64,000 bases of DNA from the NCBI RefSeq assembly GCF_040796495.1, contig NZ_JBFNQN010000015.1:1-64000 (forward strand), given 5' to 3'. Position 1 is the first letter of the stretch. Each line of letters opens with the position of its first letter. Shown here piece by piece: positions 28,184 to 64,000 of the stretch. Under the pieces are notes generated by a model. It was not told the DNA's origin, ran no database searches, and worked only from the letters and a program-made list of their open reading frames with translations. The stretch is from Kineococcus endophyticus. GTDB taxonomy: Bacteria > Actinomycetota > Actinomycetes > Actinomycetales > Kineococcaceae. Both the position numbers and the translations under genes were made by a program.

Positions 28184-29179
28184 TCACCCCGACCCGAGCA
28201 GTGCGGCGGCCACGTCGTCGGGCATCCCCCGGAACGCGTGCACCGCCGCGATCCGGCACCGCGCGACGCGCCGCAGCACGGCGACGCGGTCGGCGCGGGC
28301 CCCGTCCCAGGCGGCCAGCACACCGCGCTCGACGGCCGCGGCCGCGGCGCGGTGACCGCGCGCCGCGGCGAGGTCGAGGTGCGCGAGCAGGTTCGCGACG
28401 TCGAGCGCCGGGTCGGCGAGCGCCGCGGTGTCGACGTCCAGGAGCGTCACCCGCCGCCCCAGCAGCACCTGCCCGTCGTGCAGGTCACGGTGCGCGGGGA
28501 CGGGCGCGGCCGGAGGCAACCGGCGCAGGGCCGCGGTCGCCGCGTCCGCCGCCGCACGGAGCCCGGGCGCGGCGACGCCGAAGGCGAGGGCGTCGGCGAC
28601 CCACCGGTCCAGGACGGCGGCCTCGGCGGCGGTGTCGTGCACCGGCAGGTCGTCCGCCCCGGACGCGGCGAGCGCGGTGACGGCGGCGCCCGTGCGCCGG
28701 CCCGCCTCCTGGCAGGCGCCCACCTCCCCCGTGCGCAGGACGTCGGTCATCTCGACGCCGTCCGCGGCCCGCAGCTCCAGCCGTCCCGGGGCGCTCGCCG
28801 CGACGTCGACGAGGTCGGGGGCGTCCGACGTCCGCCCGCGGACCGGCACCAGGGCCGCGTCCAGCACGGCGTGCCGGTGCAGCGCGGTGCGCGTCGCGGC
28901 CGGGGAGGCGAGCTTGACGAAGGTGTCGCCGCGACGCAGGACGGCCCGCTTGCCGAAGCGGTGCGCGAGGAGCCGCCCGGGCAGGGCGTGCACGTCCCCG
29001 AGCCGCGGGTCCTGCGCGCGGAGGCGGACGGGGCCGCCGACCGAGGCCGCGGTCCCGGCGACGACCCGGCCCGCCGCGTCCCGGCCCTCGAGCGCGAGGC
29101 CGGCCTCCGGTCGTCCGCCCCGCCGCGGCCACACCCGCGTCCAGACGGGGGGCGTGCCCGGGGTCGGCTCCGCGGTCAC
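28184..29179 (-). CDS. Phosphotransferase family protein (kinase fold) 1
   Basis: APH-type kinase-fold protein of 331 residues. The catalytic loop is VPAHRDLHDGQVLL, with the HxD aspartate present but Gln where Asn is usual. The metal-binding segment is VTLLDVDTAALADPALDVAN (DxD). The N-terminal lobe has FGKRAVLRRGDTFVKLASP with a likely ATP-binding Lys. It starts with GTG overlapping the stop of the next phosphotransferase by four bases. Its neighbours (glycosyltransferases and an exporter) suggest a small-molecule or sugar kinase in the same pathway, or a self-protection enzyme; the substrate is unknown. Confidence 0.75.
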   Translation of the reverse strand: MTAEPTPGTPPVWTRVWPRRGGRPEAGLALEGRDAAGRVVAGTAASVGGPVRLRAQDPRLGDVHALPGRLLAHRFGKRAVLRRGDTFVKLASPAATRTALHRHAVLDAALVPVRGRTSDAPDLVDVAASAPGRLELRAADGVEMTDVLRTGEVGACQEAGRRTGAAVTALAASGADDLPVHDTAAEAAVLDRWVADALAFGVAAPGLRAAADAATAALRRLPPAAPVPAHRDLHDGQVLLGRRVTLLDVDTAALADPALDVANLLAHLDLAAARGHRAAAAAVERGVLAAWDGARADRVAVLRRVARCRIAAVHAFRGMPDDVAAALLGSG

Positions 29180-30318
29180 GCGCTCACCGCCCGCGCGGCG
29201 ACGTCGAGGAGACGGCGCGTGGCGCCGGCCCAGCCCGGCCGACGGCGCCGGAACGGTTCCGGGGCGCGCAGCAGGGCCGCGGCCGCCCGCAGGACGCCCG
29301 GCACCTCCTCGCCCGGTTCCCCGGGGTCCGCGTCCTGGGCGACGACGGCGGCGTCCCAGGACGCGAGGTCCCACCCGGCGGGGGCGCGGCAGGCGCGGTC
29401 GACGTCGAGCACGACCCAGCCGTGCGCGGTGTGCAGCAGCTGGTCCGGGGAGAGGTCACCGTGCGCGAACACCACCGGGTCCAGGTCCGCCGCGTCGGCC
29501 TCGGCGGCCGCGGCCCAGCGGTGGGCCGTGCGCCGCAGCCGGTCCGCGAAGCCGGTGTCGAGGACGACGGTCCCCCGGACGGCCTGGTCCACGGCCCGCT
29601 GCAGTCCCGCGCGGTCGAGCACGGGCAGGCGGCCGGCGTCGGTGCGCGCCCAGCCCCGCACGAGGGCGGACACGGCGGCGCGGTCGGCGGCCGTGGCGGC
29701 CCGCCCCGGCAGCCACGGCGTCCGCACGCCGTGCCGGCCGAGCGGTCCGGCGGACGGGGTCGCGATCCCCGCCGCGCTCAGGGCGCGGGCGGCGTGGACG
29801 CTGCGCACCGCGGTGCCGGCGTCGGCGTGGACCTTGCGGCACTCCCCCGACGCCCCGTGGCGCAGGACGGCCCGCCGGGCCGGGTTGTGCGCCACCGTCC
29901 GGGCACCGCGGGCGGCCTCGGCCAGGTCCGGCAGGGCCCGGTCGGTGAGGGCGGGGACCCGCACGAGCCGCAGCCCCTCGTCGAGGACGGCTGCCCCACC
30001 GGCGGCGCGGACGTCCTTGCCGACCTTGCGCCACGACGCCGCCGAGTGGGCCGTCACCAGCCACCACGGACCGCCGTCGCCGGGGTCGACGGCGGCGCGC
30101 AGCGAGGTGGACGGCTTGTAGCGCAACCGGTCGACCCGCGCGGCCGGCATCCCCGTCCACCGGCGCAGGAGCACCTCGTCCAGGACGGTCAGCACCCCCG
30201 GGACGCCGGGGTCGGCGTGCGCGAGCCGGGCGTCGACCCGCAGCTCCTCGGTGGGCGGGAATCCGGTCACGGGGTCGGTCACGGGGTCGGTCACGGGGTC
30301 GGTCACGGGGTCGGTCAC
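29176..30318 (-). CDS. Phosphotransferase family protein (kinase fold) 2, with repeat-encoded start
   Basis: APH-type kinase-fold protein, up to 380 residues. The C-terminal lobe has FAHGDLSPDQLL (catalytic Asp; Gln in place of Asn) and VVLDVDRACRAPAGWDLASW (DxD). The N-terminal part contains RLRYKPSTSLRAAV and RRAVLRHGASGECRKVHADA, with a possible ATP-binding Lys. The N-terminus is encoded by five 12-base repeats, giving VTDP four times and then VTG, so five in-frame GTG codons (30318, 30306, 30294, 30282, 30270) can start it. The first overlaps the exporter stop (GTGA). The product is related to, but clearly divergent from, the downstream kinase. Confidence 0.75.
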   Translation of the reverse strand: MTDPVTDPVTDPVTDPVTGFPPTEELRVDARLAHADPGVPGVLTVLDEVLLRRWTGMPAARVDRLRYKPSTSLRAAVDPGDGGPWWLVTAHSAASWRKVGKDVRAAGGAAVLDEGLRLVRVPALTDRALPDLAEAARGARTVAHNPARRAVLRHGASGECRKVHADAGTAVRSVHAARALSAAGIATPSAGPLGRHGVRTPWLPGRAATAADRAAVSALVRGWARTDAGRLPVLDRAGLQRAVDQAVRGTVVLDTGFADRLRRTAHRWAAAAEADAADLDPVVFAHGDLSPDQLLHTAHGWVVLDVDRACRAPAGWDLASWDAAVVAQDADPGEPGEEVPGVLRAAAALLRAPEPFRRRRPGWAGATRRLLDVAARAVSA

Positions 30319-30324
30319 GGGGTC
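30265..30324. repeat. Five perfect 12-bp tandem repeats over the start codon of the phosphotransferase gene
   Basis: The unit GGTCACGGGGTC occurs five times without mismatch. On the minus strand each unit supplies GTG ACC GAC CCC, in frame with the phosphotransferase, and the first unit also contains the exporter stop. Copy-number change would keep the frame but change N-terminal length and the number of start codons. Confidence 0.95.
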
Positions 30325-32060
30325 ACTGCCAGAGCGCGTCGAGTGGTGGGCACGGGGTGGAACCGGCCCTCGCGCACCTCGACCACCCGGTCGCACCGTG
30401 CGAGCAGCGTGGGGTCGTGCGTCACCAGGAGCGTCGTCCGCCCGTCGGCGAGCCGGTCGAGGGCTTCGAGCACGGTGTCCGCGGACGCGGCGTCGAGCCC
30501 GGTCGTGGGTTCGTCCAGCAGCAGCAGCCCGGGGTCGCGCAGCAGGGCCCGGGCGATGGCCAGCCGCTGCCGCTGCCCGCCGGAGAGCGAACTGCCCCGC
30601 TCGGCGACGACCGTGTCGTAGCCCTGGGGCAGCGCGGCGACGAAGTCGTGCGCGCCGACGTCCCGGACGGCACGTTCCACGGCCTCGTCGTCGGCGTCCG
30701 GACGGCCGAGCCGGACGTTGTCCCGCACGGTGCCGGCGAAGAGGAACGGTTCCTGCAGGACGACCGCGACGTGGTCGCGCACGTCCTTGCGGCGCAACGT
30801 CGTCAGGTCGTGACCGTCGAGCAGGACGCGGCCCGCGCTCGGGTCGAGCAGGCGCAGGAGCAGGTGCAGGGCGGTCGACTTGCCCGACCCGCTGGGGCCG
30901 ACGACGGCGATCCGCTCGCCGGGGTGCACGACGAGGTCGGCCCCGTCGAGGACCCGTCGCCCGGGGCCGCGCTCGACGACGACGCCCTCGAAGCGGACCG
31001 AGCCCCGCAGCCGCCGCAGCGACGTGGCGTCCGGGGCCTCCGGCAGGGGTTCGGCGCGGCGCAGGCAGTCCAGGACGCGTTCGCCCGAGGCCGCCGCCCG
31101 CGCGATGCGCCCGGTGTGCTTGGCCAGGTCGCGCACCGGCTTGAACGCGGCCTTGAGGTAGGTGAGGAAGACGACGAGCTCCCCGACGCTCAGGGCGCCC
31201 CCGCTGACGCGCAGCGCCCCGACGACGAGGACGACGGCCGTCGCCAGGCCGACGAGGACGTCGACGCGCCGTTCGAGGCCGGCGGCGAGCCGGCGCGCGC
31301 GGACCCCGTCGCGCAGGCTGCCGTCGTTGGCGGTGCGGAACGCCTGCGACCGGTGCTCCTGCAGGTCGTAGGCCTGGACGAGCCCGATCCCGGAGAACGC
31401 CTCGGAGGTGTCGGCGGCCAGGACGCCCTCGCGGCGGCGCTGGTCGCGGCTGGCGTCGGTGATGCGCCGCCCGCTGCGCCGGCCCGAGAGCAGCATCAGC
31501 GGGGCGACGGCGACCACGGCGAGCGCCAGGAGCGGGTCGAGCACGACCATGACGACGGCCATCGCGAGGAACGTCACGACGCTGCCGACGAGCGGCAGCC
31601 CGGCCGTGATCGCGGCCTCCTGGACCCGGCCGACGTCGGAGACGACGCGCGTGACCAGGTCGCCGGCCCGGGAGCCGGCGTGGAAGGACGGCGCGGCGTG
31701 CAGCAGCCGGGAGTGGACCTCGGCCCGCAGCCTGGTCGTGGTGCGAGAGCCCACGACGGCGAACGCCGTGGCCGTCAGGTACGCGCACAGCGCCCGGCCC
31801 GCGGCGAGCAGCACCACGGCCAGCCCGGCGAGGACGACGACCCGCAGCGTGCTCGGGGCAGCCCCCGCCGCGGGGTCGGCGGCCAGGGGCACGACGTGGT
31901 CGACGACGACCTTCAGGGGCCAGGGTTCGGCGAGCCGGAACGCGACCTCACCGAAGAGGGCCAGCAGGCCCCCGGCGGCGATGCGCCGCGAGCCGCGGGT
32001 GTGCGGGGCGACGAGGGCGACGGTGTGCCGCAGGGCCTGCTGGTCGACCGGCGTGCTCAC
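30315..32060 (-). CDS. ABC transporter, fused permease-ATPase (exporter type)
   Basis: Half-size exporter of the MsbA/LmrA type, 581 residues. Residues ~20-310 hold six transmembrane helices with an EAA-like GDLVTRVVSDVGRVQEA coupling region. The ATPase domain has Walker A VGPSGSGKST, Q-loop VVLQEPFLFAGT, signature SLSGGQRQRLAIARAL, Walker B LLLLDEPTTGLD and H-loop VTHDPTLL. It would act as a homodimer to move a lipid-linked or hydrophobic product outwards. Starts with GTG overlapping the glycosyltransferase stop. In this operon it is the likely exporter of the glycosylated product. Confidence 0.92.
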   Translation of the reverse strand: MSTPVDQQALRHTVALVAPHTRGSRRIAAGGLLALFGEVAFRLAEPWPLKVVVDHVVPLAADPAAGAAPSTLRVVVLAGLAVVLLAAGRALCAYLTATAFAVVGSRTTTRLRAEVHSRLLHAAPSFHAGSRAGDLVTRVVSDVGRVQEAAITAGLPLVGSVVTFLAMAVVMVVLDPLLALAVVAVAPLMLLSGRRSGRRITDASRDQRRREGVLAADTSEAFSGIGLVQAYDLQEHRSQAFRTANDGSLRDGVRARRLAAGLERRVDVLVGLATAVVLVVGALRVSGGALSVGELVVFLTYLKAAFKPVRDLAKHTGRIARAAASGERVLDCLRRAEPLPEAPDATSLRRLRGSVRFEGVVVERGPGRRVLDGADLVVHPGERIAVVGPSGSGKSTALHLLLRLLDPSAGRVLLDGHDLTTLRRKDVRDHVAVVLQEPFLFAGTVRDNVRLGRPDADDEAVERAVRDVGAHDFVAALPQGYDTVVAERGSSLSGGQRQRLAIARALLRDPGLLLLDEPTTGLDAASADTVLEALDRLADGRTTLLVTHDPTLLARCDRVVEVREGRFHPVPTTRRALAVTP

Positions 32061-33238
32061 GCGGGGACCTCCTGCCGGGTGGTGACCGGGGACAGGCCGG
32101 CGAGGGAGCGGTCGACGACGCGGGTCCACGTGCCGCGCTCGACGACGGCCCGGCGGCCGGCGGCCCCCAGGGCGGCGCGCAGCGACGGGGTCGTCCGGAG
32201 CCGTTGCAGCGCAACGGCCAGGGCGTCGACGTCGCCCGCGGGGACGAGGAGCAGCTCGGTCCCATCGCGGTAGGTGGTCGCCAGGTCCCCGACGGTGGCG
32301 GCGACGGTCGCGGTCCCGCACGCGAGGTACTCGGCCACCTTCAGCGGGGAGAAGTACCGTGCCCCCGCGGGGTACGGCGCCACCGCGACGTCGGCGCGGG
32401 CCAGCAGGGCCGGGACCTGCGCGGGGTCGACGGCGCCGGGAGCCTGGACCGCCAGGCCCAGCTCGGCGGCACGGGCCAGGGCGGCGGCGCGTTCGGGCCC
32501 GTCGCCGACGAGCAGCAGCTCGAGGGCCGGCCCGGGCTGCGCGCGCAGCCGCCCGACCGCCTCGACGAGCAGGTGGACGCCGTGCCAGGGGCGGAAGGCG
32601 CCGACGAAGGCGATCCGCAACGGCGCCGCGGCGCCGGTCCGGCCGGGGTCCCCGGCGGGCCGGAACCGGTCGACGTCGACCCCGTTGGCCACCACCCTCA
32701 CGTCCGCCCCGGGCGCGAGGTCGCGGATCCAGTCGGCCACGGCCGAGCTCACCGCGACGACCCGGCGCGCCGCGACGAGGGCCCGCCGGGTGCGGTCCCA
32801 GGCCGTCGCGACGTCGTGCAGGCTGCGGTGGCGGGCCTGCTCGACGGGCAGCGGGGCGTTGACCTCCAGGACGGCGGGCACGCCGAGCTCGGCGGCGACC
32901 TCCTGTGCGGCGCAACCGAACAGCGCGTACCGCTCGTAGACGAGGGCGCCTGCGTCGGCGCCGGCGACGAGCTCCCGGACCAGAGCGGCGACCTGCCCGT
33001 CGGCGGCCACGAGGTCCTGCTCGCGCTCGGCCCGCGAGCGCCCGCCGGGCAGGTGGACCGGGTGCGTGCGCACGCCCGCCAGGCCCGCGCCGGGCTCCCC
33101 GCCGGGCCGGGTCGTCACCACGTGCACGTCGTGGCCGGCGGCGAGCAGGACGCGCAGGACCTCCTGGACGTGCACGGAGCAGCCCTTGCCGCCGAAGACG
33201 GGCACCCCGGGGTCGAGGCTGACGACGACGACGCGCAT
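32057..33238 (-). CDS. Glycosyltransferase family 4 protein 1
   Basis: GT-B fold glycosyltransferase, 393 residues. N-terminal domain: SLDPGVPVFGGKGCSVHVQE, with the glycine-rich loop typical of GT4. C-terminal donor-binding domain: VVANGVDVDRFRP, IAFVGAFRPWHGVHLLVEAV, LLVGDGPER and the acidic-pair region in ARYFSPLKVAEYLACGTA. No signal peptide or membrane helix is seen, so it works on the cytosolic face. It overlaps the upstream glycosyltransferase by one base (TGATG) and the exporter by four. Substrates are unknown. Confidence 0.88.
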   Translation of the reverse strand: MRVVVVSLDPGVPVFGGKGCSVHVQEVLRVLLAAGHDVHVVTTRPGGEPGAGLAGVRTHPVHLPGGRSRAEREQDLVAADGQVAALVRELVAGADAGALVYERYALFGCAAQEVAAELGVPAVLEVNAPLPVEQARHRSLHDVATAWDRTRRALVAARRVVAVSSAVADWIRDLAPGADVRVVANGVDVDRFRPAGDPGRTGAAAPLRIAFVGAFRPWHGVHLLVEAVGRLRAQPGPALELLLVGDGPERAAALARAAELGLAVQAPGAVDPAQVPALLARADVAVAPYPAGARYFSPLKVAEYLACGTATVAATVGDLATTYRDGTELLLVPAGDVDALAVALQRLRTTPSLRAALGAAGRRAVVERGTWTRVVDRSLAGLSPVTTRQEVPA

Positions 33239-34482
33239 CAGCGCACCCCCGCCGGCTGCAGCGCCGGAGCCTGCGGCGACGCGACGGCGGTGGAGACGGC
33301 GGTGGAGAGGTCCCGCAGCCGGGCCGCCTGGGTGCGTACGTCGAAGAACTGCTCGACGCGGGTGCGGGCGGCCCGCGCGTACCGCCGGCCGAGCTCGGGG
33401 TCGTCGAGGAGCCGGCGCAGCGCCGCCGCCAGCGCGACCGGGTCCGCCTCGGGGACGAGGGTGCCGGTGATGCCGTCCAGCACGGCCTCGGGGATGCCCG
33501 TCACCGGGGTGGACACGACGGGGGTGCCGAGGGCCATCGCCTCCAGCAGCACCGTCGGCAGGCCGTCGCGGTCCCCGTCGGGGGCGACGACGCACGGGGC
33601 CGCGAACACCGCGGCCCGGCGCAGCAGGGCGGCGACCTCGTGCTGGGGCAGCGCCCCGGCGAACTCGACGGCGTCGCCGAGGTCCCGGGCCCGCTCCCGC
33701 AGGGACGTCTCCAGCCGTCCGCTGCCGGCGAGGACGAGGCGGACGGGATCGCCTGCGGCGCGCAGGATCCGGACCGCGTCGAGCAGGTCCTCGAAACCCT
33801 TCTTCTCCACGAGGCGGCCCACGGCCGCGACCACGCGGTCCCGCCGGAGGGGGGCGTGGTGCTCGAGGGCGTCGAGGTCCAGGCCGTTGTGGACGCGGAC
33901 GACGTTCGCCGCGGGGTGGTGACGCTGCAGGTGCCGCAGGTTGTAGTCGCTGACGGTGACCACGGCGGCGGCGTCGGTCAGCACACGGTCCAGCAGGGCC
34001 GGGTCGGCCGGTGGCACGTAGATGTCCTTGGCGTGCGCGGTGAGGGTGTAGCCGGTGCCGAGCAGCGCCGCGGCCAGCCGCGTGGTCCGTCCCGGCAGCG
34101 TGGCGAAGTGGGCGTGCAGGTGGGTGACCGCGTTCTCGCGGGCCCACAGCGCGACCCCGACGGCCTGGGCCGCGACGGCGACCTCCTCGGCCAGCAGCTC
34201 GGGCAGCGTCGCGGCGAAGCCCGGGAGGTGCTCCGCCCGGCGCAGGGCCGCCCACAGCGCGCCGCTGGACCGGCCGGCGGTCTCCTCGATCCAGGTGACG
34301 GGGGCGTCGACGCCCGCCAGCAGCGCGTGGAACCGCGGGTCGGTGGGGGCCCGCAGGCTCGCGACGGCGATCCGCTCGCCCTGCGCTTCCCGGGCGGCGA
34401 TCTCCCGGACGACGAACGTCTCGGAGAACCGCGGGTACATCTTCACGACGTAGCCCGTGGTGGGGGTGGTGTCAGCTCGCAC
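33238..34482 (-). CDS. Glycosyltransferase family 4 protein 2
   Basis: GT-B fold glycosyltransferase, 414 residues. N-terminal domain: YVVKMYPRFSETFVVREIAA and THLHAHFATLPGRTTRLAA, a form seen in colanic-acid-type or WcaL/EpsE-like transferases. C-terminal domain: VVRVHNGLDLDALE, VGRLVEKKGFEDLLDAV, LAGSGRLETSL and DGLPTVLLEAMALGTPVVST. It overlaps the GT28-like gene upstream by 11 bases in another frame. This is a second, distinct GT4 protein and is not a duplicate of its neighbour. Together with the other two it could build a short oligosaccharide. Confidence 0.88.
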   Translation of the reverse strand: MRADTTPTTGYVVKMYPRFSETFVVREIAAREAQGERIAVASLRAPTDPRFHALLAGVDAPVTWIEETAGRSSGALWAALRRAEHLPGFAATLPELLAEEVAVAAQAVGVALWARENAVTHLHAHFATLPGRTTRLAAALLGTGYTLTAHAKDIYVPPADPALLDRVLTDAAAVVTVSDYNLRHLQRHHPAANVVRVHNGLDLDALEHHAPLRRDRVVAAVGRLVEKKGFEDLLDAVRILRAAGDPVRLVLAGSGRLETSLRERARDLGDAVEFAGALPQHEVAALLRRAAVFAAPCVVAPDGDRDGLPTVLLEAMALGTPVVSTPVTGIPEAVLDGITGTLVPEADPVALAAALRRLLDDPELGRRYARAARTRVEQFFDVRTQAARLRDLSTAVSTAVASPQAPALQPAGVR

Positions 34483-35674
34483 GGCGGGACTCCGTTCGGG
34501 GGGAGGTGGGGGTGCGGAAGAGGTGGCCGGCCCGGTGCTGGACGGCCCGCAGGCCGTCGAGGGGGCTGCGGCGGCGCGCGGCCGCGTGGTGCACGTCGCC
34601 CCGCACGGCGCGGGCGATCCAGTCGGCCAGCGCGGCCGGATCGGGGTCGGTGAGGTGGTCGAGCATCCCGCGCCGGGACATGGCCCGGGCCCGGACGAGC
34701 TGTTCGCGGCGCGGACGCGTGCGCGGCACGACGAGGGCCGGGGTGGAGGTGGCCAGCACCTCGGCGACGGTGTTGTAACCGCCCATGCAGACCACGGCGT
34801 CGGCGTCCGCCGCCCAGTCGGGGAAGGCGTCGGTGAAGGCGACGACGTCGAGGTCGGTGCGGGCGCGCTCGGCCCGGTCGAGGTCGGCGAGCAGGTCGGC
34901 CGCCGCGAACGGCCCGGGCAGCAGGACGAGCCGCGTCCGCGGCGGCAGCGGGGTGGCGAGCAGCGCCCGGGTCAGGTCGGCCCCGTCGACACCCCCACCC
35001 ACCGCGGCCAGGACGGTGCGCTCCCCCGCCCGGCCCACCGGCTCGACGCCGTGGCGGCGACCGTCGGCGAGGTAGCCGAGGAAGCGGGTGGAGCGGGCCA
35101 GGTGCGGGGGCAGCCCGAGGTCGGCCCGCACGTCGTGGACCGCGGGGTCCCCGTAGACCCACACCTCGTCGTACCAGCGGTCCAGGGCGGCCTCCCCGCC
35201 GTCGCGCTGCCACTCGCGCCGCGCGGTCGCCGGCCCGTCCAGGACGTCCCGCAACCCCAGCACGACGCGGGTGCCGCCCCGCGTCCGCAGGTCCTCCAGC
35301 GCCGGCTCGAGCTCGCCGTGGAAACCCCGCGGGACCTTGTCGACGACGAGCAGGTCCGGCTGCCACGCGGCCAGGGCCCCGGTGAGGACGGCCGAGCGCA
35401 GGCCGACGACGACCTCGAGGGGGACGTCGAGCGCCCCCGCCTCGTACCGACCGGAACCGTCCTTGGTGATGGTGGGCAGCACGAGCAGTTCCACCCCCTC
35501 GGGGCGCTCGAACCGTTGCGCGGCAGGAGAACCGGTGACGACGAGGACGTCGGGCCGCTCGTCGCCGGCCCGCAGGGCGGCCGCCAGCGCCAGGTTGCGC
35601 CGCAGGTGGCCCAGTCCGCACGTGTCGTGCCCGTAGAGGGCGACCCGCGGACGCGGTGGGGAGGACTTCGTCAC
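34472..35674 (-). CDS. GT28/MurG-like glycosyltransferase
   Basis: 400-residue GT-B protein of the GT28-like group. The N-terminus RVALYGHDTCGLGHLRRNLA has the HxxGxG-like loop, and the C-terminal CMGGYNTVAEVLATSTPALV followed by PRTRPRREQLVRA is the donor-site block shared with MurG and related transferases. It begins with GTG preceded by GAGGAG. It is the first gene of a six-gene operon (GT28, two GT4, exporter, two phosphotransferases). The promoter must lie in 35675-35821, shared with the divergent two-component operon. Confidence 0.85.
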   Translation of the reverse strand: MTKSSPPRPRVALYGHDTCGLGHLRRNLALAAALRAGDERPDVLVVTGSPAAQRFERPEGVELLVLPTITKDGSGRYEAGALDVPLEVVVGLRSAVLTGALAAWQPDLLVVDKVPRGFHGELEPALEDLRTRGGTRVVLGLRDVLDGPATARREWQRDGGEAALDRWYDEVWVYGDPAVHDVRADLGLPPHLARSTRFLGYLADGRRHGVEPVGRAGERTVLAAVGGGVDGADLTRALLATPLPPRTRLVLLPGPFAAADLLADLDRAERARTDLDVVAFTDAFPDWAADADAVVCMGGYNTVAEVLATSTPALVVPRTRPRREQLVRARAMSRRGMLDHLTDPDPAALADWIARAVRGDVHHAAARRRSPLDGLRAVQHRAGHLFRTPTSPRTESRRAS

Positions 35675-63604: not shown

Positions 63605-64000
63605 GTGCGTGCCCCCGTGTCCCGTCCGCTCGTCCTCGCGGTGCTGGCGGTCACGGGAGTGGCCCTCGCGGGGTGCTCGTTCCGCGGCGGGGTCAGCGTC
63701 GGGGCACCGGCGACGACGAGCTCGCGTCCTCCGACCTCGGCCGCCTCCAGCCCCACCACGACGAACCCCACGCCCGCACCGTCGACTCCCACCCCCACCG
63801 CGACGACCCCGGTCCCGACGACCCCGATCCCGACGACGCCCGTCCCGACGACGCCCACCCCCAGCGCGCCACCGACCACGGTCGGCGTCTGCACCTCGGC
63901 CCAGCTCGTCGCGGCGCTCGCCCCGGCCGACGCGCCGGCCGGCAGGGGCGCCGCGCTCCTGACGCTGACGAACACCGGTCGCTCGGCGTGCCACCTCAAG
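63605..64000 (+). CDS. DUF4232-type lipoprotein (cut by the window edge)
   Basis: The 132 visible codons encode a lipoprotein signal peptide with lipobox LAGCS (Cys ~22), a long Pro/Thr/Ser linker of ~65 residues (TPVPTTPIPTTPVPTTPT and similar, from 15-base near-repeats in the DNA), then the start of a DUF4232-like domain, VGVCTSAQLVAALAP and LLTLTNTGRSACHLK, with two cysteines. DUF4232 proteins are anchored actinobacterial surface proteins of unknown function. It is incomplete: the 3' end lies beyond the window. Divergent from the two-component system, which may control it. Confidence 0.85.
   Translation, partial: MRAPVSRPLVLAVLAVTGVALAGCSFRGGVSVGAPATTSSRPPTSAASSPTTTNPTPAPSTPTPTATTPVPTTPIPTTPVPTTPTPSAPPTTVGVCTSAQLVAALAPADAPAGRGAALLTLTNTGRSACHLK

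Follow-up and report, generated by a model that had tools for sequence, protein, structure and literature searches.

A 12-bp segment that spans the overlapping stop and start codons of an ABC exporter gene and a phosphotransferase gene is present in five perfect tandem copies in Kineococcus endophyticus. We consider it likely that the array is a neutral minisatellite expansion across a coupled junction, and that the overlap itself makes such an expansion tolerable.

The array and the junction that it covers

The array lies on the minus strand at 30264..30324 of the window, the whole 64,000-nucleotide stretch of DNA that was analysed, and consists of five perfect units plus one base. Its unit reads GGTCACGGGGTC on the plus strand and GACCCCGTGACC, five times over, in the sense direction on the minus strand. 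TRF gives a period of 12, 5.1 copies and 100% identity over 30264-30324, with the highest score among the 58 TRF rows of the window. A two-unit probe searched against the 5.04 Mb assembly matched inside this tract only, at one genomic place, and the array reported in the initial annotation is accordingly real. The chance of such a run in 5 Mb, estimated from composition only, is about 4e-19; ranking against other real arrays is a fairer yardstick, and by that measure the array stands fourth in score among 22 arrays from 1.66 Mb of its own genome. With tandem units of a length divisible by three, situated at the margin of an open frame, it is an in-frame coding minisatellite. An imperfect 8-nt piece, GTGACCCC (30319..30326, minus strand), abuts the array upstream and codes part of the exporter's last residues, VTP. 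Adjacent 21-bp and 15-bp tandem repeats also occur near the end of the window (63747-63852; TRF scores 65 and 83).

Genes were called with a simple codon-usage caller, whose starts are approximate. In these calls the exporter and the phosphotransferase overlap by 4 nt within a run of minus-strand genes. The exporter (30315..32060, start by gene caller) contains the ABC_membrane and ABC_tran domains and is 83% identical to its counterpart in a second Kineococcus genome, G004. Three glycosyltransferase-type genes lie upstream of it (32057..35674, also minus strand), and downstream of the phosphotransferase is a second kinase-like gene (28184..29179), which has a GTGA overlap at its start too. 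The phosphotransferase itself (29176..30318) has 380 residues when read from the first GTG, with the N-terminus VTDPVTDPVTDPVTDPVTG, also given as VTDPVTDPVTDPVTDPVTGFPPTEELRVDARLA.

The HxDxxxxN/Q and DxD motifs mark APH/choline kinase-like phosphotransferases. Residues H286, D288, Q293, D305 and D307, which make up HxDxxxxQ and DxD, are invariant in six aligned rows. The window protein gave no Pfam match even at E<=5, the APH model PF01636 included. Two of four related proteins scanned do match PF01636 (L015, E 2.7e-20; L024, E 1.9e-15); it is absent from the other two, L011 and the second kinase-like protein of the window. The phosphotransferase assignment made earlier is thus backed indirectly, by these relatives and by the invariant motifs. 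A structure model built on two sequences had a mean pLDDT of 42.9 and is poor; its residues 1-21 form a low-confidence segment. The sole PDB profile rows, 11 in number, were all to aerolysin at E 0.34 or worse and were taken as spurious.

The exporter ends in ...RRALAVTP, and its stop codon TGA (30317-30315) lies inside the first unit. This stop overlaps the first GTG of the phosphotransferase (GTG1, 30318-30316) in the four bases GTGA (30315..30318, minus strand). Stop and start overlap as RTGA on one strand, which makes this a -4 nt gene pair; the GTGA overlap with the exporter had been noted before, and it is present in G004 as well. Further GTGA overlaps follow on the same strand at 30303..30306, 30291..30294, 30279..30282 and 30267..30270, placing GTG2, GTG3, GTG4 and GTG5 at 8, 20, 32 and 44 nt past the exporter stop. 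The first bases of the five GTGs (30318, 30306, 30294, 30282 and 30270) are all in the phosphotransferase frame (29176-30318), as claimed for the multiplied start codon. A period divisible by three also brings TGA back in the exporter frame in every unit, so that all units are full GTGA stop/start overlaps. The initial annotation placed the exporter stop in the first unit; it is there, but not there alone, since all five units carry an exporter-frame TGA.

Since both signals are present in every duplicated unit, no copy number breaks either frame. When units are gained or lost, the first stop, the first start and the 4-nt overlap stay as they are, and only the (VTDP)n tail of the phosphotransferase is predicted to change. 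The expected frame neutrality of unit changes therefore holds, and a variable N-terminal length is borne out in principle. The array differs from a phase-variable contingency locus, in which a change in unit number shifts the frame: a period of 12 preserves both the frame and the first overlap.

Relatives of the junction and origin of the array

The phosphotransferase has a narrow distribution. It was found in two of 11 genus genomes and two of 12 family genomes, its own included, and these two are G000 (the window's genome) and G004, with 62% identity between the proteins. Across the order, 22 of 198 genomes match the phosphotransferase, and outside G000 and G004 the matches are distant, at E 2.6e-23 or weaker. 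Two scans of genome contigs for phosphotransferase relatives, from which the own genome was possibly left out, gave no confirmed match. Exporter matches at E<=1e-60 occur in all 12 family genomes; an orthologue (83%) is found only in G000 and G004, and the remaining exporter matches, among the matches listed, are 31-38% identical. Orthologues of the exporter and the phosphotransferase together thus occur in only two of the 12 family genomes, a patchy distribution of the pair. A 24-base probe taken from just downstream of the array matched 13 of 19 genomes, in every case with mismatches apart from the exact match to the window.

At the G004 junction cgGTGA occurs once, preceded by GGAGGAGG; Shine-Dalgarno pairing is strong there, and an array is lacking. 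This junction is the sole orthologous one found, and it comes from one species. The G000 and G004 proteins align from a TEE-R-DARLA segment onward, past the repeat tail, which is absent in G004. L011, a distant homologue, starts four residues before DARLA, and its ATG overlaps the stop as TGATG after GGAGGAG; the sequence preceding it is, as read by eye, the end of an ABC ATPase. Because the G004 and L011 junctions lack the tail and yet overlap, the exporter overlap appears to predate the array, and the phosphotransferase does not have the tail as a conserved part. Identical units in all relatives, the outcome that the initial annotation had named as counting against it, were not found: the one orthologous junction is without an array. 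The homology pattern, with G004 as the single orthologous junction, suggests a gain in G000 rather than a loss in G004.

We therefore favour the following course of events as the likely one. A 12-bp segment spanning the GTGA overlap of exporter and phosphotransferase would have been multiplied to five copies in the G000 lineage, probably by replication slippage or by unequal recombination between short direct repeats. The array would have been tolerated because each unit is a complete stop/start module. The exporter would always end at the first TGA, and the phosphotransferase GTG that overlaps this stop would stay in frame through the later units. Termination-reinitiation, presumably mainly at GTG1, would then give the protein a flexible tail, (VTDP)n, that is no part of its conserved domain, and gain or loss of units would alter the length of this tail and keep the geometry of coupling. 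The mutational route, the use of GTG1 and the neutrality of the expansion are all inferred.

Start codon use and translational coupling

Pairing energies were predicted with an assumed anti-Shine-Dalgarno tail sequence. The values are -4.7 kcal/mol for GTG1 and -2.4 kcal/mol for each of GTG2 to GTG5, against -15.3 kcal/mol for the G004 start. The weak pairing at GTG1 relative to G004 counts against the favoured explanation. It is also ordinary in this genome: the 1.66 Mb sample of G000 holds 229 called -4 pairs, their median pairing is -6.6 kcal/mol, and in 24% of them pairing is equal to that of GTG1 or weaker.

Gene pairs that overlap as GTGA or ATGA (-4 nt) are described as coupled by termination-reinitiation (PMC10666635, PMC6728339). 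The distance dependence of such coupling was measured in H. volcanii and E. coli, and that study reports that a spacing of about 20 nt between stop and start nearly abolishes coupling (PMC10666635). For E. coli, the same source gives a reduction of 80-90% in two pairs and a complete loss in a third at 38 nt, and variable, pair-specific outcomes at 2 and 14 nt (PMC10666635). GTG2 to GTG5 follow the stop at 8-44 nt and have little Shine-Dalgarno pairing, so GTG1 is probably the favoured start. Since the shorter distances gave pair-specific results in E. coli, GTG2 may be used as well. Copy number is expected to affect the tail alone and to leave coupling as it is, because the first stop/start pair is the same at any unit number.

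An alternative is that initiation takes place at GTG5 or another late GTG, leaving the larger part of the array untranslated, as a spacer between the two genes. A protein begun at GTG5 would have nearly the length of the G004 protein, with nine residues to the shared EE compared with 11 in G004. The last GTG is also the called start in a separate 11-mer array of the genus, L291, which is described below. However, the sequence before GTG5 pairs as weakly as that of any start in the array and GTG5 is the start farthest from the exporter stop, and we regard initiation this late as unlikely.

Slightly less probable, in our judgement, is a contingency locus that tunes expression, in which unit number would set the start codons open to post-termination ribosomes, and with them the level of phosphotransferase, in place of a lost Shine-Dalgarno sequence. 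The strong pairing in G004 and the weak pairing on the array side fit such a replacement. The array mRNA is less folded than shuffled versions (z = +2.22), and GTG2 is just 8 nt past the stop. Against tuning, GTG3 to GTG5, at 20-44 nt, are at or beyond the published coupling range and pair poorly, weak pairing of this degree is commonplace among local -4 pairs, and the placement of the array is not above chance, as set out below. The earlier proposal that translation level changes with unit number is probably wrong: the first overlap is constant and GTG2 to GTG5 are weakly paired, from which we infer no such change.

Placement and recurrence of arrays at gene starts

Arrays were surveyed with fixed criteria in 1.66 Mb (33%) of G000 and 0.4 Mb of G004. 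In the G000 sample one of 22 arrays, that of the window, touches a called start, compared with 1.19 expected by random placement; in G004 none of 15 does, compared with 0.73 expected. The most frequent period in G000 is 12, with 13 of the 22 arrays. We also counted how often different classes of position fall in tandem duplications. In G000 the counts are one of 229 -4 junctions (that of the window), one of 1254 other starts, eight of 2616 internal codons and 17 of 3240 intergenic positions; the corresponding counts in G004 are 0/56, 1/258, 1/550 and 43/800. These junction counts (1/229 and 0/56) rule out -4 junctions as hot spots of tandem duplication in the two samples. The position of the array is not demonstrably special, and its placement is at chance level. 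In a separate observation, of the 15 arrays that the 400 kb of G004 yielded, 10 lie in the first 20 kb of one contig (L114, G004:C2:1-20000); nine of these 10 are outside called genes, and five have periods that are not multiples of three.

A pattern of four RTGA words at fixed spacing was searched for in the 12 family genomes, and the matches were sorted with the gene caller. The outcome was 53 near-perfect arrays, with 24 at period 12, eight at period 9, 11 at period 15, six at period 11 and four at period 13. Left out of this number were 17 loose rows with unit identity below 0.85 (nine of period 12, three each of periods 9 and 15, and two of period 11), one of which, the period-12 row L139, has an upstream stop inside the array. 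Also left out was L171, an identical copy of L142: these two loci (G009:C1:126960 and 360310) carry the same eight-unit ATGACGCCGGGC array on opposite strands and are identical over 548 bases before the array and 1110 from the array start on, which points to a duplicated element. Period-12 RTGA arrays are not mostly start-codon arrays, as only two of the 24 near-perfect ones in the family touch a same-strand start; the others lie within genes, at their ends or in stretches with no called gene. Across the order, at least 116 of 198 genomes matched the RTGA search, and 30 loci among the matches listed (L064-L093) included six near-perfect arrays, none of which touches a same-strand start.

Seven of the 53 family arrays touch a same-strand start: the window's, L256, L267, L291, L141, L254 and L260. 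Three have the exact build of the window, with the upstream stop and the downstream start in the first unit. Besides the window these are L256 (G002:C179:4463-4493), a 9-mer array at the junction of a Phos_pyr_kin (ThiD-type) gene and a TENA_THI-4 gene, and L267 (G010:C216:3114-3162), a 15-mer array at the junction of a KDPG aldolase gene and a PfkB kinase gene; the GTGA overlap is repeated in both. L291 (G002:C907:9474-9510) is an 11-bp GTGAGCGCCCG array in which the upstream gene stops in unit 1 and a methyltransferase is called from the last GTG. It is a natural frame-breaking version of the window's build, and this arrangement fits tolerance and not selection for frame. At L141 the array, of 12-mers, stands at the start of a phosphopantetheinyl transferase gene, and the upstream stop ends 20 nt before it. 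For L254 and L260 the nearest upstream called genes are on the opposite strand, and L260 is a weak 63-codon call. The initial annotation had called such an array uncommon. This was half right: a similar build exists at other junctions of the genus (L256 and L267), and these are few.

Seven of 53 arrays at starts is a proportion above the roughly 5% of the survey and counts against chance placement, with the proviso that the RTGA requirement favours junctions by construction, a bias that is only partly modelled. For arrays of at least four copies over a -4 junction, about 2.9 are expected in 12 genomes and three exact ones plus L291 were seen, a rough comparison because the expectation is extrapolated from one genome's densities at all periods and the observed arrays are RTGA arrays of five periods. 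RTGA matches in the family outnumber reversed-pattern matches by 78:7 at period 12, 16:1 at period 9, 12:1 at period 11, 5:0 at period 13 and 23:18 at period 15, in counts of overlapping matches rather than arrays. The RTGA word occurs about three times as often as its reversed form in the family genomes, so this control is unmatched and decides nothing. Start arrays recur on unrelated genes with unrelated units, in roughly the number that chance placement would give.

Three of these arrays give repeat tails at the starts of congener proteins: VNPVNP.. on TenA (L256), VSGDG.. on PfkB (L267) and VTQD.. on the phosphopantetheinyl transferase (L141). Matches to the L256 TenA protein begin beyond the VNP tail, at residue 36 for Pfam, at residues 34-36 in 10 of 11 PDB rows and at residue 26 in one. 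An N-terminal tail whose (VTDP)n length is selected, for instance for contact with a membrane or partner, and tuned by unit changes would suit these congener tails and the perfect, in-frame units of the window, but is the least probable of the alternatives and very doubtful, as the congener tails show no sequence relationship and belong to unrelated enzymes, where they precede the matched domains, and the (VTDP)n tail has no counterpart in the G004 orthologue.

The array has features in common with several known systems. It shares its 4-nt overlap with plain -4 nt coupled pairs, of which the G004 relative is an example, and differs from them in having the overlap five times in tandem. Like the tetranucleotide contingency loci of Haemophilus influenzae (PMC2651432), it has its repeat at or just after the translation start and a repeat peptide confined to the N-terminus; unlike those loci, in which 4-nt length changes shift the frame, its period of 12 keeps the frame, and its unit number is known here from one genome. 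The TAACTGA heptamers upstream of start codons in Beggiatoaceae are likewise short direct repeats at translation starts. All 169 sets of them share the one heptamer and for the most part stand immediately before the start (PMC4679880), whereas the arrays considered here each have their own unit and cover the start codon. Likenesses within the genus are L256, L267 and L291, where RTGA tandem units begin exactly at the upstream stop and the downstream start is within the array; these differ from the window in genes, units and periods (9, 15 and 11), and L291 starts at its last unit. We recognised no report of tandemly multiplied stop/start overlaps in the titles and abstract openings of the records listed, a scope that takes in few subscription journals.

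For the genus as a whole, it is conceivable, though we think it improbable, that expansion of RTGA modules is a recurrent and tolerated route to in-frame N-terminal tails, or to spacers where the period breaks the frame, and that unit number may adjust reinitiation where Shine-Dalgarno pairing is weak. The array of the window illustrates by what means a -4 nt overlap can persist when it is duplicated in tandem. Together, the junctions with periods of 9, 11, 12 and 15 are natural variants for how far a post-termination ribosome moves and which start it takes. That one genus holds such naturally varied junctions, each with its own period, is the unusual and testable part of the finding.
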